IMG/VR virus record: IMGVR_UViG_3300031638_000018
Coordinates: 1 to 24,714 of that record
Reading direction: 5' to 3' (one strand)
Length of the DNA stretch: 24,714 bases
Source of the DNA: a virus
Shown here: piece by piece, positions 12,445-22,195 of the stretch
Layout: every line of letters begins with the position of its first letter
Position numbering within the stretch: position 1 is the first letter of the stretch
Notes under the pieces: generated by a model
Told to the model about the DNA's origin: nothing
Seen by the model: only the letters and a program-made list of their open reading frames with translations
Databases searched by the model: none
Translations under genes and position numbers: made by a program

Positions 12445-12474
12445 TTTACAAATAAGTATTAAAAAATATATGAT
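12445..12474 (+). promoter_or_regulatory. Candidate sigma70-type promoter for the 12486 oxygenase gene
   Basis: TTTACA (12445-12450), an 18-base spacer, then TATGAT (12469-12474). The predicted start of transcription is near 12481, only about five bases before the ATG at 12486, so the message would be almost leaderless; no ribosome site is visible. The whole divergent space (12416-12485) is AT-rich. Confidence 0.5.
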
Positions 12475-12485
12475 AAACTACAAGC

Positions 12486-13199
12486 ATGTACAAACTTAAA
12501 AACTACTTACTCAGCATGCAGTCGCACTGGATGATCAATCAGAACACCTACAATGCCGTGCAAGAAACCATGCCATTGGTTACTAAGTTTAGAGCTGGCA
12601 AAGGCACAGAACCAATGGGCAAGACTCCTGTGCATCAGATTGCCAAGAAAGTATTTCCTGATGTGTACACCGTGCCGTTGTTTCGCAGACACTTTTGTAA
12701 GCTCTTAATGAAAGAGATAGAGCTGATGAAGAGAGAGATTAAGTTTGAAGGCAACGAAGACGAAGACGATCTACGACAGATACCAGAGATAGTGTTGTTG
12801 GAACACTGTCCAGAGCTGTACCGCAACATGTGGTTCGTTGTTCACACGGTACTCAATCCTATCTTCAATGCAATTTGGCAACGTGACTGCAAAGACCCAG
12901 CCAGCATCCAGATCGCTAACTACAATATAAAGGAGAAGCAACAAGGTGCTTGGCACCACGACCACAGTGCTGACATCAGTGTGGTGGTTCCTCTTAACAC
13001 AGGCTCTTACGAAGGTGGTGGTACGGCTTTCCACAACCACGGTTCACTGAAGCCCATACCGAATGGTCACGCCCTGATCTTCCCTAGCTTTACCAATCTG
13101 CACAAAGGACTGCCAGTAGGAACTGGCGACAGATACCTGTTGGTCTTTTGGTTGTGCGACAAAAAACGCATGGTGGATTTGGTTGAATACATCCCTTAA
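12486..13199 (+). CDS. 2OG-Fe(II) dioxygenase family protein
   Basis: A 237-residue protein. The C-terminal half is a typical double-stranded beta-helix oxygenase. W-H-H-D-H gives the iron ligands H157 and D159. This is followed by S-A-D-I-S-V-V-V-P-L-N and Y-E-G-G-G-T-A-F. The distal ligand is H206 in N-L-H-K-G-L-P-V, and R216 in G-D-R-Y binds 2-oxoglutarate. All catalytic residues are present. Enzymes of this fold hydroxylate proteins, nucleic-acid bases or small molecules; the substrate cannot be told. The N-terminal 120 residues are helical and match nothing I recognise. The gene is alone behind its own promoter, divergent from the small putative regulator. Later Mets (residues 11 and 16) are alternative starts, but both lie far upstream of the catalytic motif. 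Confidence 0.85.
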   Translation: MYKLKNYLLSMQSHWMINQNTYNAVQETMPLVTKFRAGKGTEPMGKTPVHQIAKKVFPDVYTVPLFRRHFCKLLMKEIELMKREIKFEGNEDEDDLRQIPEIVLLEHCPELYRNMWFVVHTVLNPIFNAIWQRDCKDPASIQIANYNIKEKQQGAWHHDHSADISVVVPLNTGSYEGGGTAFHNHGSLKPIPNGHALIFPSFTNLHKGLPVGTGDRYLLVFWLCDKKRMVDLVEYIP

Positions 13200-13217: not shown

Positions 13218-13256
13218 TGTGCAAATACTTGCACATTCCTACACATTTGCTATTGT
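13218..13256 (+). promoter_or_regulatory. Palindromic operator plus candidate promoter before the 13290 gene
   Basis: TGTGCAA (13218-13224) and TTGCACA (13229-13235) form an inverted repeat with a four-base centre, ATAC. The right arm contains TTGCAC (13229-13234), which is 16 bases upstream of TATTGT (13251-13256), a plausible -35/-10 pair. A repressor on the palindrome would block this promoter. TGTGCAA/TTGCACA words also occur in the non-coding region after TerS. Confidence 0.5.
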
Positions 13257-16358: not shown

Positions 16359-18521
16359 ATGTCACTAAAAATAACACGACCCACCAAGAATTTTGATAGA
16401 CCTTTAACAGTAGATTACCAAGTAGAATTCACTAACTTTCTTAGTGACAATGGCTTGGAACCAGAACCACAGAAGGGCTTAGTCGCTGACGGCACTATTG
16501 GTCGTGCTTACATCAATGTTGGCGGCAAAAGGAAGCTCGTAGGGTGGTATCAGTTGTGGCTCGATCAGTCTGTGCCTTATGGCAGACTGGGTGATTATCG
16601 AGTCTCAGCTGATTCTCCTACTGCTATTTGGAAACCAGAAAACAGAAAAAGACAGACGCTTACTAAAGAGGAACGGCAAGAAATAGCCGATCTACAGAAG
16701 CAAGCAGAGGTCAAACAACAGGAGAAGTACAGCAAGTCAGCTAAACGAGCACAGAGCCTATGGGATGAAGCCGTACCGTGTGAAAAGCACCCGTACTTAG
16801 AAAAGAAACAGGTGTTGTCTTACGGTTTGAAGGTCAACGCATCGGGACAGCTGGTCATACCTTTGTACGACAAACAGATGACCATTGTTGGTCTGCAATA
16901 CATAGCACAGGACGGCTCAAAGAAATTTCTTACTGGTTCTAAGAAAAGCGGTAGCTTTTTTATTCTGGGCAAAGAGATATTAAAAACCAGTGACATAATT
17001 AACTACGCAGAAGGCTATGCAACAGCAGCGAGTGTCTACGCTGATTACTCACAGCCCGTCATCGTGGCATTTGATGCCTACAATCTATCGCCTGTTGCAG
17101 AGGTCATGTTTGAATTTTTTAACAAGAAGAAACACATCTTTATAGCGGACAATGACGACTCCAAGACGGGTGAGAAGGAAGCAAGCAAAGCCTGTCAAAC
17201 CATACTTAAAAACAAGGGCAATGCCGAGGTTTTAATGCCTCAGAGCAAGGGTGATTACAACGACCACAAGAACGACCCATTAGAAGGCGAACTGATACCT
17301 TCCTTGCAGAAATTAGACCTACCAATCGATTACGAGTTTCAACGCAACGCAAGCGGACGCTTCTTAAACACAAAGGATAATGTGAATGGCGTTTTAAAAA
17401 CGCACAGTGTTGAAGTGCGTTACAACGTCATCAAGAAACGCATGGAAATAGACATACCGAACACCAAGTTCATCGCTGATATGAAGGAGGAGGCATCTTT
17501 GATAGAGGTGGAAGACCGAGCCATCAACATGGGCATACCGCACAACCGAGTCAGAGATTACCTGAAGATACTGGCAGAAGAATACAACCCAGTGGTGGAA
17601 TGGATAGACAGCGAGCCTTGGGATGGCGAAAGCCGTCTGCAAACCTTTCTGGACAGCTTAATGACACACGAGAGCAACCAGCTAAAAGAAATGCTGATGA
17701 AGAAGTGGTTGGTCGGTTGTGTCGCTGCGGCTTACGAAGAACAAGGAGTGGAACTCGAAGGCATCTTGGTACTGCAAGGTGCACAAGGACTGGGTAAGAC
17801 GCTGTGGTTCAAGCGACTGTGCGATTACGACAGGGGTTGGCTACTGGAAGGTGCCACACTTAATCCCAGTGATAAGGACAGCGTAAAGCGAGCCGTTAGT
17901 CACTGGATCGTGGAGTTGGGCGAAATTGAGAGCACGTTTAAGAAGAGTGACATCGACCAGCTCAAAGCATTTGTCACGGCAAAGACGGACGAACTCAGAT
18001 TGCCGTATGACCGAGCGTTTACCACCTACCAGAGACGCACTGCCTTTTACGCCAGTGTTAACGCCAGAGAATTCTTGACGGACACGTCTGGTAATCGAAG
18101 ATTTTGGGTTCTGGCGGTAAAAGACATCAACGTGAACCACGGAGTCAAGATGCAACAGTTGTGGGCTGAGGTTAAGGAGACTTTGTATGTGAAAGGGCAA
18201 AAGAACTGGTTTCTAAGCCCTGATGAGCGAGCCATGTTGCACGAATCGAACGAGATATACCGTACACAGTCTAGTGTTGAAGATTTGCTCTTGGAACACG
18301 TTGATTTCGACAGTGAATACGCAAAACCAGTACAGATGACCAAGTTGTTGCGTGATTTGGGCATTAAAGCCCCAAGGATGCCTGACTTCAAAGAAGCCAA
18401 TCGTGTCTTGCACGAAAGAGGCATCGAAGCACGCAGAACCAACGGTAAGAAGGTTTACGACATCAGCTACACCGCTGTGGAAGAGTCGGGTGGGTTTAAC
18501 AGCAACTTTGGGAGCGACTGA
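16359..18521 (+). CDS. Primase-helicase: TOPRIM primase region plus virulence-associated E (VapE) helicase domain
   Basis: About 720 residues. The ATG at 16359 is preferred over the TTG one codon upstream. In order (numbered from the TTG): an N-terminal region; a TOPRIM-like domain with Y-A-E-G-Y-A-T-A (218-225; catalytic E219) and I-F-I-A-D-N-D-D-S (261-269); then a VapE/D5-like superfamily 3 helicase. The helicase has D-S-E-P-W-D-G near 418, Walker A G-A-Q-G-L-G-K-T (475-482), W-I-V-E-L-G-E-I-E (517-525) as Walker B, and a S-G-N-R-R-F-W motif near 578. The protein should prime and unwind at the phage fork. No phage DNA polymerase is in the window, so it may work with the host polymerase. 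It is coupled to the Mom-like gene by TGATG. Confidence 0.85.
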   Translation: MSLKITRPTKNFDRPLTVDYQVEFTNFLSDNGLEPEPQKGLVADGTIGRAYINVGGKRKLVGWYQLWLDQSVPYGRLGDYRVSADSPTAIWKPENRKRQTLTKEERQEIADLQKQAEVKQQEKYSKSAKRAQSLWDEAVPCEKHPYLEKKQVLSYGLKVNASGQLVIPLYDKQMTIVGLQYIAQDGSKKFLTGSKKSGSFFILGKEILKTSDIINYAEGYATAASVYADYSQPVIVAFDAYNLSPVAEVMFEFFNKKKHIFIADNDDSKTGEKEASKACQTILKNKGNAEVLMPQSKGDYNDHKNDPLEGELIPSLQKLDLPIDYEFQRNASGRFLNTKDNVNGVLKTHSVEVRYNVIKKRMEIDIPNTKFIADMKEEASLIEVEDRAINMGIPHNRVRDYLKILAEEYNPVVEWIDSEPWDGESRLQTFLDSLMTHESNQLKEMLMKKWLVGCVAAAYEEQGVELEGILVLQGAQGLGKTLWFKRLCDYDRGWLLEGATLNPSDKDSVKRAVSHWIVELGEIESTFKKSDIDQLKAFVTAKTDELRLPYDRAFTTYQRRTAFYASVNAREFLTDTSGNRRFWVLAVKDINVNHGVKMQQLWAEVKETLYVKGQKNWFLSPDERAMLHESNEIYRTQSSVEDLLLEHVDFDSEYAKPVQMTKLLRDLGIKAPRMPDFKEANRVLHERGIEARRTNGKKVYDISYTAVEESGGFNSNFGSD

Positions 18522-19192
18522 TGAGTAAAGACAGTCCGTTTAGCACTTACAAGATAAAGCAGATGCCAATTAATCTTTACAAAGAGTGGTTATTGGAAAA
18601 ACACTACGCCAAAAGGCTGTGTCCTATATCTTATGCTTTTGGGTTGGTCGATATTAGCGACAACATAGAAGGTGTTATCACTTTCGGCTGTCCTCCCAAC
18701 AAAGAATACAATGATGGCAAATGTATCTTCAACAAAAAGAAGATCAGAACACTGGAACTCAACAGATTGGTTCTAAACTCCAAAACGCCTAAAAACACAG
18801 CCAGTTATTTTATTATGCAAGCCATTAAAAAGCTGCCGACACCTATGGCTTTAGTCTCTTATGCTGATGCTAACTACAATCATCATGGCTACGTTTACCA
18901 AGCCACTAATTGGCTCTACACAGGAACCAGTGCAAAGAAACACAGGTATACGTTTGAAGACGGTTCAACTTTTGACATGAGAAGAGACATAGACAAGAAA
19001 GGCGAGATAACAGGCAGAGTGGAACTGTTGCCAACTTACAGATACATTTATTTGCATGGCAACAAGAAAGAAAAAAGAGACATGAAGAAAGACATGAAAT
19101 GGGAGGTGCTTGCATATCCTAAAGGACAAAACAAACAATACGATTGCGTTGATATACAGATGAAATCACTACAAGGAGACATGTTTGAGTAA
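18521..19192 (+). CDS. Mom-like DNA adenine modification protein (GNAT-related)
   Basis: A 223-residue protein whose ATG shares a base with the primase stop. The arrangement L-L-E-K-H-Y-A-K-R near the start, I-S-Y-A-F-G-L, G-V-I-T-F-G, L-E-L-N-R-L-V-L, K-N-T-A-S-Y-F-I, L-V-S-Y-A-D-A-N-Y-N-H-H-G and V-Y-Q-A-T-N-W-L-Y-T-G is characteristic of phage proteins grouped with phage Mu Mom. Mu Mom adds a methylcarbamoyl group to adenine and protects DNA from many restriction enzymes. The tail has Y-R-Y-I-Y-L-H-G-N-K-K, also typical. No Com-like zinc-finger activator is visible beside it. Its position directly after the primase suggests modification of newly replicated DNA. The family call is fairly sure; the exact base chemistry is not. 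Confidence 0.75.
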   Translation: MSKDSPFSTYKIKQMPINLYKEWLLEKHYAKRLCPISYAFGLVDISDNIEGVITFGCPPNKEYNDGKCIFNKKKIRTLELNRLVLNSKTPKNTASYFIMQAIKKLPTPMALVSYADANYNHHGYVYQATNWLYTGTSAKKHRYTFEDGSTFDMRRDIDKKGEITGRVELLPTYRYIYLHGNKKEKRDMKKDMKWEVLAYPKGQNKQYDCVDIQMKSLQGDMFE

Positions 19193-19856: not shown

Positions 19857-19912
19857 GAGGAGTATAACGTATAAAACCATGGTTTATAGGGGTTGCATTA
19901 CAGGAAGTGTTT

Positions 19913-19942
19913 GGGAGCTGTACACTGCACTTGGTACACTGT
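19913..19942 (+). promoter_or_regulatory. Paired GTACACTG element, copy 2
   Basis: GGGAGCTGTACACTG (19913-19927) and GTACACTG (19934-19941), with starts 14 bases apart. The second box abuts the candidate -35 TTGTCA (19942-19947), so binding there would affect transcription of the 19947 gene and perhaps TerS. Confidence 0.6.
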
Positions 19943-19969
19943 TGTCATGAACGTACTGCAATCTATACT
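19942..19969 (+). promoter_or_regulatory. Candidate sigma70-type promoter before TerS operon
   Basis: TTGTCA (19942-19947), a 16-base spacer, then TATACT (19964-19969); both boxes differ from consensus at one position. The transcript would start near 19976, which makes the ATG at 19977 effectively leaderless, or serves TerS downstream. Confidence 0.5.
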
Positions 19970-20122: not shown

Positions 20123-20635
20123 ATGGCTGGACGACCTAGGAAACCAAAACAGAAGATAGTGAGTGCTCCGACACAGTTTGAGAAAGACCACGAGTTTGGT
20201 CTGACTGAGATGCAGTCGTCATTCGTTTGGCATTACACCGAAGGTGCTTGCAGCCAGACTGAAGCAGCTCGGAAAGCTGGCTTTGAGTTTCCAGCTGTCA
20301 GTGCCAACAAACTGCTCAGCGGTACGCATCACCCGAAGGTAGTCAAAGCCATCAGGATCAAACAGGATGAGCTGGCTGAGAAGTACGCCATCACACCACA
20401 GAAGACTGGCACAATGTTGTGGAAGATCATGGAGCAAGCGTATGAAAGTGGACAGCTTAACGCTGCGGTTTCTGCCATCAAGGAGCTCAATCAGCTGGGA
20501 GGATTGTCCATCAATCGCTCGCAGAACATCAACATCAACGCCAACCTTGACCGCATGAGTAAGGAAGATATCAAGGAGAGACTGGGCAAGTTGCTCGGAG
20601 CAGAAACCTCGGATTACTCACCGAAGGATAAATGA
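20123..20635 (+). CDS. terS: Terminase small subunit
   Basis: A 170-residue protein; GAGGAG lies just before the ATG. After a basic head (G-R-P-R-K-P-K-Q-K) comes L-T-E-M-Q-S-S-F-V-W-H-Y, then C-S-Q-T-E-A-A-R-K-A-G-F (about 43-54), the HTH that recognises packaging DNA in Terminase_2-type small subunits. It continues with H-H-P-K-V-V-K-A-I-R and a central helical oligomerisation part containing A-Y-E-S-G-Q-L-N-A-A-V-S-A-I-K-E-L-N, ending with a charged tail. The protein binds the phage pac or cos site and hands DNA to the large subunit. The large subunit does not follow here, so TerS is separated from it. Nearby repeats may include its target. Confidence 0.8.
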   Translation: MAGRPRKPKQKIVSAPTQFEKDHEFGLTEMQSSFVWHYTEGACSQTEAARKAGFEFPAVSANKLLSGTHHPKVVKAIRIKQDELAEKYAITPQKTGTMLWKIMEQAYESGQLNAAVSAIKELNQLGGLSINRSQNININANLDRMSKEDIKERLGKLLGAETSDYSPKDK

Positions 20636-21069
20636 ATTGGTAACTAAGTAATGAGGTGCTCTGCCGTTGAGAGCCCAAAAATCCTGAGAAATTCATTTTT
20701 TCCTAGAAAGTCCAATAGAATCAATAGCTTACGGGTGTATGCTAACATGCACATCTTTGCATGATTGTGCAAACTTGTGTTCAGAGGGCTAACACCTCTG
20801 CATTTCTGGTTCTCTCCAGCCCTCAAAGGAACCCTATGGACTGGGTTTTTAGGGTAGCCAGAACTAATTAATTGACCCCGACACCCCCAAATAGCCAGAG
20901 CCTCGTGCAGTTATAGTTATAGCTAAGTTAGGTACACTGAATCACCAAAAAATCTCATTGCACTTTTAAAGTGCTATACTTTGCACACGACCACATTCGT
21001 GCTGAAAAAAAATTTTTCAAAAAAAAATATGAAAATTAATTACCAACAAAATGTAGGGCAACTTTTAGA
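20636..21069. other. Non-coding, structured 434-bp stretch after TerS
   Basis: No convincing gene. Visible structures are CATGCA/TGCATG (20746-20751, 20758-20763) overlapping the alternative pair TTTGCA/TGCAAA (20756-20761, 20768-20773); a perfect hairpin CAGAGG-GCTAACA-CCTCTG (20782-20800); CTGG/CCAG (20806-20819); and ACCCTA/TAGGGT (20831-20855). GCTAACA occurs twice (20741, 20788). AATGAATT (20631-20638) can pair with AATTCATT (20690-20697) followed by T residues, a weak terminator-like layout. A further GTACACTG lies at 20932-20939. A- and T-tracts at about 21006-21031 suggest bent DNA. Possible origin, packaging site or non-coding RNA. Confidence 0.55.
20960..20980 (+). promoter_or_regulatory. 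Extended -10 promoter overlapped by a 15-bp palindrome
   Basis: GCACTTTTAAAGTGC (20960-20974) is a perfect 7+1+7 palindrome. It ends in TGC directly before TATACT (20975-20980), giving an extended -10 (TGnTATACT). No good -35 is seen at normal spacing. A GTACACTG box lies at 20932. A repressor on the palindrome would block the promoter, which points toward the RusA-like gene. Confidence 0.5.
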
Positions 21070-21459
21070 ATGAAAGATCAAATTAATATTTGTTTGCCGT
21101 TACAAATTTACTATTCAAAAAATAAAAAATTTATTTTAAATTTGAACAACTACAGAAACGCCTACTTCAGAATCCTGTCTATTGCAAAAAAAAATTACAC
21201 CGAGGAGCTGCTACCTGAGTTGCAAGACTTACCTGAATTCACCGAACCAGTGACCTTGACCTACACCTACTACGCCAAAACCAAAAGGCGTATCGACATA
21301 AGCAACCCTTGCTCAATCATAGACAAGTTTGCCTGTGACGCTCTGGTAAAGGCTGGAGTTCTGAAAGACGACAGCTTTGAACAGGTCAACCAAGTGATTT
21401 ACAAATTTGGCGGTTTCGACAAAGAGAACCCCAGATGCGAGCTGGTAGTATCTACATAG
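21070..21459 (+). CDS. rusA: RusA-like Holliday-junction resolvase
   Basis: A 129-residue protein starting at 21070 with no clear ribosome site. The family pattern is present in the second half: K-R-R-I-D-I-S-N (D76), then I-I-D-K-F-A-C-D-A-L (D85, D90), then A-G-V-L-K-D-D-S (D100, D101), then Q-V-I-Y-K-F-G-G. These acidic positions match those used by RusA to bind magnesium and cut four-way junctions. The length fits (RusA is about 120 residues). The usual N-terminal P-P-S-x-N motif is replaced by Y-Y-S-K-N-K-K. Phages use it to resolve branched DNA before packaging or in recombination, which suits its place after TerS. The first 50 residues are unusually AT-rich in codon use. Confidence 0.75.
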   Translation: MKDQINICLPLQIYYSKNKKFILNLNNYRNAYFRILSIAKKNYTEELLPELQDLPEFTEPVTLTYTYYAKTKRRIDISNPCSIIDKFACDALVKAGVLKDDSFEQVNQVIYKFGGFDKENPRCELVVST

Positions 21460-21464
21460 ACAAC

Positions 21465-21507
21465 TTGGTTTACTAACACACGCTTGCACTGATACAATCG
21501 TCTCATG
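21465..21507 (+). promoter_or_regulatory. Promoter-like repeated element, copy A
   Basis: TTGGTTTACT (21465-21474), 16 bases, then GATACAATCGTC (21491-21502) and ATG at 21505. TTTACT and TACAAT sit 18 bases apart as -35 and -10. The same layout, with the same 16-base gap, recurs at 22051-22093. Transcription would begin near 21505 and enter the oxygenase gene at 21533. Confidence 0.55.
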
Positions 21508-21532
21508 TCTGGAATCAGTAACACAGTAGACC

Positions 21533-22078
21533 ATGCACTCTTCTAAACACGGTGTAACGGGCATGTCTTTGTCCACCGAACAAGTGCAAACGTTCATGGA
21601 CTACCTAGAAGACGCCATGCCAGTAAAGGCTAAAGTGCACAAATCTGGCAAGAAAAAGACCGACACTGCCGTTAGAGATGCTGATGTTTACCATATTGAG
21701 CATGAAGCCACAGAGTTGTACGACATCTTGCAAGAGGTTGCAAAGATGGTTAATCTCTACTTCAAGTACGATCTTACTGGCATTGAGAAAGCACAGATCA
21801 TGCACTACAAAGCTCCTTCCAATGGCTACAACTACCACATCGACCTAGAACCCCACACCAGCGAAACCTCTCGGAAGGTCAGCGTGTCCATATTACTCAA
21901 TGATGAATACGAAGGTGGTGAGATTTGCTTCAGAACCAGTGAAGAAGGGACTTGCCAGAAGCCGAGTGTAGGCAACGTCATAGCTTTTAGTAGCTTTATA
22001 CCGCACAAGATCAATCCGATTACCTCTGGTGAACGCTATGCAGTCGTTGTTTGGTTTACTGGTCCTTGCTTTCGATGA
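21533..22078 (+). CDS. 2OG-Fe(II) dioxygenase (prolyl-4-hydroxylase-like)
   Basis: A 181-residue protein; an in-frame ATG at 21563 is an alternative start, and neither has a clear ribosome site. The C-terminal half is a complete catalytic core: I-M-H-Y-K-A-P followed by Y-N-Y-H-I-D (H102, D104 bind iron), K-V-S-V-S-I-L-L-N and Y-E-G-G-E-I-C-F, G-N-V-I-A-F-S-S-F-I-P-H (H158, distal ligand), and S-G-E-R-Y-A-V-V-V-W (R168 binds 2-oxoglutarate). The pattern is that of P4Hc/PKHD-type enzymes, which hydroxylate proline or other residues in proteins; the phage substrate is unknown. It is the third such enzyme here. A second copy of the repeated promoter element lies within its last codons. Confidence 0.85.
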   Translation: MHSSKHGVTGMSLSTEQVQTFMDYLEDAMPVKAKVHKSGKKKTDTAVRDADVYHIEHEATELYDILQEVAKMVNLYFKYDLTGIEKAQIMHYKAPSNGYNYHIDLEPHTSETSRKVSVSILLNDEYEGGEICFRTSEEGTCQKPSVGNVIAFSSFIPHKINPITSGERYAVVVWFTGPCFR

Positions 22079-22093
22079 TAGAATCGTCCAATG
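22051..22093 (+). promoter_or_regulatory. Promoter-like repeated element, copy B
   Basis: TTGGTTTACT (22051-22060), 16 bases, then GATAGAATCGTC (22077-22088) and ATG at 22091. It matches copy A at about 31 of 43 positions, with spacing kept exactly. It lies over the 3' end of the oxygenase gene and would drive the mini-ORF and the large gene at 22201. Confidence 0.55.
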
Positions 22094-22195
22094 AAACTTG
22101 CAAACAGAACGGATAAAACAACGGCTTGTTATCAAGGTTGGTTCTGGAACAGCGAGAAACAGATTTTGGAAAGATGGAGTAACGCAACGGTTTAA
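22091..22195 (+). CDS. Possible mini-gene (34 aa)
   Basis: An ATG at the end of promoter-like copy B opens a 34-codon frame ending five bases before the next gene. It encodes M-K-L-A-N-R-T-D-K-T and then a Trp-rich part, Y-Q-G-W-F-W-N-S-E-K, finishing with a helical E-R-W-S-N. No family is recognised. Support is only that it fills the gap precisely; it may instead be a leader for the 22201 gene. Confidence 0.35.
   Translation: MKLANRTDKTTACYQGWFWNSEKQILERWSNATV

Follow-up and report, generated by a model that had tools for sequence, protein, structure and literature searches.

The window analysed here, which spans the whole of a 24,714-base linear virus record, carries two similar elements on either side of its third oxygenase gene, and these raise the question of what kind of sequence they are. 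Exact matches to TTGGTTTACT-N16-GATAnAATCGTC were located by a scan of the window at 21465-21502 (copy 1) and 22051-22088 (copy 2), and each was followed after a gap of 2 bases by an ATG, at 21505 and 22091 respectively. The copies were identical at 31 of 43 positions, with similarity at background level on either side. The preliminary description, which had reported two equally spaced elements matching at about 31 of 43 positions and an ATG 2-3 bases downstream, was correct in these respects. It had also proposed that the genome and its relatives be scanned for the motif: no third copy was present in the 24.7 kb window with up to 3 mismatches allowed, the exact motif occurred in just two public viral contigs besides the window, and the half of the element holding the -10 box and ATG was not repeated in relatives, being found zero times or once in each relative outside the immediate lineage. 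The number of matches expected by chance from shuffles was 0 for this pattern, which was defined post hoc. However, 5 of 100 dinucleotide shuffles of the window held a 43-mer pair matching at 31 or more positions, and other pairs as good in the window itself were confined to long tail or structural ORFs, 54-72 bases apart. Taken blind, the likeness of the copies was borderline in these shuffles, so its significance must rest on relatives. We regard it as very unlikely that the resemblance is a chance one, picked as the strongest among the many that the window offers, since each copy was separately conserved in relatives and kept its distance to the ATG there; the match between the copies, as distinct from their promoter character, may nevertheless be partly due to chance, including the extra TTGG and CGTC identity.

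Copy 1 is located between the stop codon of a gene for a RusA-type Holliday junction resolvase (21070-21459, plus strand, 129 aa, phrog_1682 3.9e-34) and the third oxygenase. On the same strand, its -35-like box TTTACT occupies 21469-21474 and its extended -10 TGA-TACAAT (TGATACAAT) occupies 21490-21498, with the hexamer 18 bases past TTTACT and TGn right before a TAnnnT hexamer, the arrangement of a sigma-70 extended -10. In RusA relatives among public viral contigs the element was found directly 3' of RusA, where it was non-coding and had different genes next to it, and the consensus read TTTACT-N18-TACAAT with TG ahead of the hexamer and 5-6 bases to the ATG. When 7 distinct versions were aligned, mean identity was 95% in TTTACT (5 of 6 positions invariant), 100% in the TG, 90% in the -10 hexamer and 100% in the ATG, versus 64% in the 15-base spacer and 53% in the 6 bases past the -10 box. 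This pattern is the footprint of a putative promoter with boxes 18 bases apart. The host-type promoter likeness noted earlier was thus borne out, since the -35-like box, the 18-base spacing and the extended -10 were all kept in relatives. The added conserved CGTC claimed with it was not: the bases past the -10 box read CGTC, CGTT, CCTT, CAGC, TGTG, CGAT or AGCT, and because the boxes were 90-100% kept compared with 53% past the -10 box, CGTC lies outside any motif.

Copy 2 is fused to the end of the third oxygenase gene, a 2OG-Fe(II) oxygenase of 181 aa (21533-22078, plus strand, PF13640 1.7e-12, phrog_61 1e-25). The C-terminus of this protein reads V-V-V-W-F-T-G-P-C-F-R-stop, in which TGG-TTT-ACT-GG encodes W-F-T-G, and the -35-like box TTTACT (22055-22060, plus strand) forms the codons F-T of this motif, which is kept in oxygenase relatives. 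Protein conservation therefore does fix the TTGGTTTACTGG half of copy 2, and the previous statement that the match between the copies is not due to protein conservation holds for copy 1, non-coding in relatives, but not for this half of copy 2. The extended -10 of copy 2, TGA-TAGAAT (TGATAGAAT, 22076-22084, plus strand), takes its TG(A) from the TGA stop codon of the oxygenase, a fusion that had been overlooked. Among 40 oxygenase relatives, 20 had the promoter at the oxygenase stop and all 20 used TGA, although many are close kin and the 20 are not independent. The promoter was shifted 13-14 bases downstream in 5 others and absent in 15, and all of these 20 ended in TAG or TAA. In the five promoter-less records examined, an opposite-strand ORF came directly next. 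In two relatives with a different oxygenase tail (L022 and L026), TGATAGAAT likewise preceded the following ATG by 6 bases, and a new TTCACT was present 16 bases upstream of it; since the distance from box to ATG was kept, the copy 2 element belongs to the start of the downstream gene and not to the oxygenase. As the -35 would be ancestral in copy 1 and consists of conserved codons in copy 2, their common TTTACT probably reflects convergence on a workable -35.

Read as codons, copy 1 gives W-F-T-N-T-R-L-H-stop, with the W-F-T codons and the TGA placed as in copy 2, as though it were a relic of an oxygenase 3' end left by a decayed gene duplication. We hold this to be extremely unlikely. The likeness ended abruptly upstream of TTGG, and such a reading of copy 1 was ruled out by the RusA relatives, which were non-coding there, carried CTAG, ACAG or TTGG before TTTACT, and had no adjoining oxygenase.

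The preliminary description had instead proposed a phage-specific motif, in which the whole TTGGTTTACT...AATCGTC word is read by an RNA polymerase of the phage, or by a sigma factor or activator that the phage encodes. TTGG and CGTC are indeed common to both copies and go beyond ordinary promoter boxes, and TTGGTTTAC was seen again at copy 1 in L134 and L136. In the relative L007, CGTC was changed to CGTT in both copies, as if jointly constrained. We nonetheless consider such a family improbable, given that the record holds two copies only and each relative outside the immediate lineage at most one -10/ATG half, that the CGTC bases are free to vary in relatives, that the TTGG of copy 2 consists of oxygenase codons, and that the boxes match sigma-70 with an extended -10. 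The many near-identical long copies of a T7-type phage RNA polymerase promoter family were not found, the count being two in a record that may be a fragment. The earlier proposal of a repeated phage motif was not supported, and one containing CGTC was rejected on the evidence of the relatives. The shared CGTY lies at 21499-21502 and 22085-22088 in the window, and its parallel change in L007 could be due to chance or to exchange between the copies.

In both copies 6 bases separate the -10 box from the ATG (CGTCTC and CGTCCA), and the first T of the -10 hexamer is exactly 12 bases ahead of the ATG. This distance leaves no room for a Shine-Dalgarno site, and it would place the beginning of transcription at about the A of the ATG; that an ATG at the expected transcription start implies a leaderless mRNA had been missed in the preliminary description. 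The spacing was surveyed in 662 kb of sequence from related phages by searching for TGnTAnAMT at distances up to 30 bases before ATG-started ORFs of at least 30 codons. TGnTAnAMT was exactly 6 bases before the ATG at 43 sites, compared with 0-8 sites at any other distance, and each of ten shuffles gave 0-2 sites at spacing 6. Since many of the records are close kin, clustered counts weigh more than the raw 43: the proteins downstream of the spacing-6 sites fell into 11 unrelated families and the sequences upstream into 7 unrelated contexts, where other distances had a median of 1. The downstream families were clustered by BLASTP, and a clustering by shared 4-mers was discarded because it lumped unrelated proteins. 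Three named phages chosen for a similar stabilization-type protein (DSL-LC04, HTVC027P and CRP-901) had 0, 1 and 0 such sites and no peak, so the spacing rule is not general to such phages. The -35 is the weaker part: TTTACT, at 18 bases in both copies, matches TTGACA at 4 of 6 positions; at copy 1 it is kept, at copy 2 it is part of the coding sequence, and the other spacing-6 sites lack it. A consensus scan of the region found 15 promoter-like sites versus 20.5 in shuffles, and since this is fewer than in shuffles, a lone promoter match means little without comparative data.

The same geometry was present elsewhere on the plus strand of the window. The extended -10 TGATAAACT (12471-12479) is 6 bases before the ATG at 12486 of the first oxygenase, and homologues of that gene in L106, L107 and L088 had an extended -10 at 6-8 bases. 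A further extended -10, TGGTACACT (19932-19940), is 6 bases before the ATG at 19947 of a 57-aa ORF, with spacing 6 at 8 homologous sites; this ATG is a better start than the TTG at 19893 of the mechanical ORF call. The extended -10 TGCTATACT (20972-20980) is 6 bases before an ATG in relatives, where TGCTATAnTTTGCACATG is nearly invariant, and before an ACG in the window. In L008 and L016 the TGCTATAnTTTGCACATG site opens a 128-aa gene.

What stands behind the two ATGs differed among relatives. The promoter of copy 1 was followed by genes of 216 aa in L123, at least 130 aa in L126, 275 aa in L128, 326 aa in L132 and 408 aa in L133, and by further genes in L134, L136 and L137, so that exchange covers L123, L126, L128 and L132-L137. 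In the window, its ATG, 6 bases past the box, opens a 13-codon ORF (MSGISNTVDHALF-stop, 21505-21546, plus strand) overlapping the oxygenase start at 21533 in another frame. The close relatives L123 and L126 had the same promoter followed by ATGGCTGGAA at the start of their long ORFs, L007 had ATGGCTGGAACC and then a short ORF, and L027 and L028 had a MAGI-type gene immediately 5' of the oxygenase. By comparison with L123, L126 and L007, the 13-codon ORF is probably a scar left by a gene that was lost, the order of events being inferred. As the simplest reading of its history, the MAGI-type gene would have been deleted with its first codons left behind, and the promoter would for that reason now be upstream of the oxygenase. 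A putative scar of the same sort was seen in L010: the upstream promoter there is followed by an ORF of about 11 codons, in place of the 128-aa gene that L008 and other relatives carry. Behind copy 2, again at 6 bases, the ATG opens a 34-codon ORF (MKLANRTDKTTACYQGWFWNSEKQILERWSNATV, 22091-22195, plus strand) with a small homologous ORF in L026 and L123; in most other relatives a long structural-type gene holds this ATG position, and the gene after copy 2 varied among L087, L092, L099, L113 and L115. Because different genes are joined right after the ATG at both sites and scar-like ORFs follow it in the window and in L010, we also considered that the elements are boundary or recombination words at gene starts, used for cassette swapping, with the promoter look incidental or secondary. 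This appears quite unlikely: conservation tracks the promoter boxes but leaves out the spacer and the bases ahead of the ATG, which would not be expected of a recombination word, the 6-base spacing was also found at unrelated sequences, and the shifted copy 2 of L022 and L026 holds its distance from box to ATG and not its distance to the oxygenase.

Weighing these findings, we consider it likely that both elements are host-type sigma-70 extended -10 promoters for leaderless mRNAs, with activity, start site and leaderless translation predicted from the sequence. What the sequence shows directly is where the elements lie, how they are conserved, the peak in spacing, the link with the stop codon and the exchange of downstream genes. 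As a counterpoint, neither ATG opens a long gene in the window (13 and 34 codons). In the proposed mechanism, the housekeeping (sigma-70-type) RNA polymerase of the host would recognise TGATAnAAT together with the weaker -35 TTTACT 18 bases upstream, the first RNA base would be the A of the ATG or a neighbour of it, and ribosomes would begin on the first codon of the resulting leaderless mRNA, with no Shine-Dalgarno site. Copy 1 would be an old promoter behind RusA after which several different genes have been placed; in the lineage of the window the gene after it would have been lost, leaving the 13-codon ORF and bringing the promoter upstream of the oxygenase. Copy 2 would be a promoter inside the end of the oxygenase gene, with the W-F-T codons as its -35 and the TGA stop giving its TG, and would serve the next gene.

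Leaderless (TA-led) bacterial genes carry as their signature a TANNNT hexamer some 12 bases ahead of the start codon (Zheng et al. 2011, PMC3160421), and this -10 signature was tested experimentally in Deinococcus (Deinococcus-Thermus study 2025, PMC12340547). The elements agree with it in that the first T of the hexamer falls at exactly 12 bases, a spacing at which such hexamers were enriched and which was exact across many unrelated genes. They differ in belonging to a phage group, in the extended -10 TG and in the -35-like box at these two sites. The classic leaderless message of a phage, lambda cI mRNA (PMC3160421, PMC9031893), likewise comes from a phage promoter placed so as to start the mRNA at the AUG, but it encodes a repressor, whereas the genes behind the sites described here are structural-type, small or metabolic ones and are spread over a whole group. 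The Start-Associated Sequences of Cluster K mycobacteriophages (GGGATAGGAGCCC, 3-7 bases before start codons, PMC3203893) are also short conserved sequences close before the start codons of many different phage genes. Unlike those, which are repeated within a genome, the present elements have -10 and -35 boxes in a handful of loosely similar copies, and no GGAG-containing word was present in copy 1 or copy 2. At the level of titles and abstracts, no report of leaderless expression in pelagiphages or marine phages was found. Extended -10 promoters and leaderless genes are known kinds, and what is new is this instance, its group-wide use and the stop-codon fusion.

Several neighbouring features were observed. 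The long intergenic region 20635-21000 after the small terminase gene was 88-97% kept in close relatives, and in distant relatives about 75% was kept over its last 120 bases. It contains near-invariant TATAnCTAnGTT and AATCAC-nAAAAA words. The region may be regulatory or may serve in packaging or replication, and no conserved RNA fold was found in it (3 pairs, no compensatory change). Rfam returned no RNA element, and no tRNA was found. TTGCAC/GTGCAA palindromes were present as GCACTTTTAAAGTGC at 20960-20974, overlapping the extended -10 at 20972, and as TGTGCAAATACTTGCACA at 13218-13235, and are candidate operators for a regulator of the phage. The position of the RusA-type resolvase (21070-21459) was taken in 80%-identical relatives by a gene for a 140-aa protein, MPINSRxKGASYER (L008 2582-3004), which looks like a putative resolvase of a different type. 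A Mom-like DNA modification protein (18521-19192, PF25680, 1e-27) is encoded by the same phage as the three 2OG-Fe(II) oxygenases. Three contigs, L193, L194 and L195, from one MAG labelled Maricaulis sp., encode relatives (43-68%) of the 629-aa stabilization-type protein of the window, a weak lead to Maricaulis sp. as host, since phage contigs can be mis-binned.

With these results, a group of uncultured phages gains promoter and start-codon annotation, and gene starts are corrected, such as the ATG at 19947. The spacing pattern suggests that at a set of its sites this phage group depends on leaderless translation. Where the stop codon is fused to the extended -10, one sequence serves as both the end of a coding region and a putative promoter. 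We tentatively raise the possibility that the leaderless promoter and ATG units act as sockets, in which the promoter stays fixed and genes are exchanged directly behind the ATG. If so, an incoming gene would need neither its own promoter nor a ribosome-binding site, and in one case the promoter would be locked into the last codons and stop of the preceding gene. If downstream genes do swap at the leaderless ATG, this would be a simple route to phage mosaicism.
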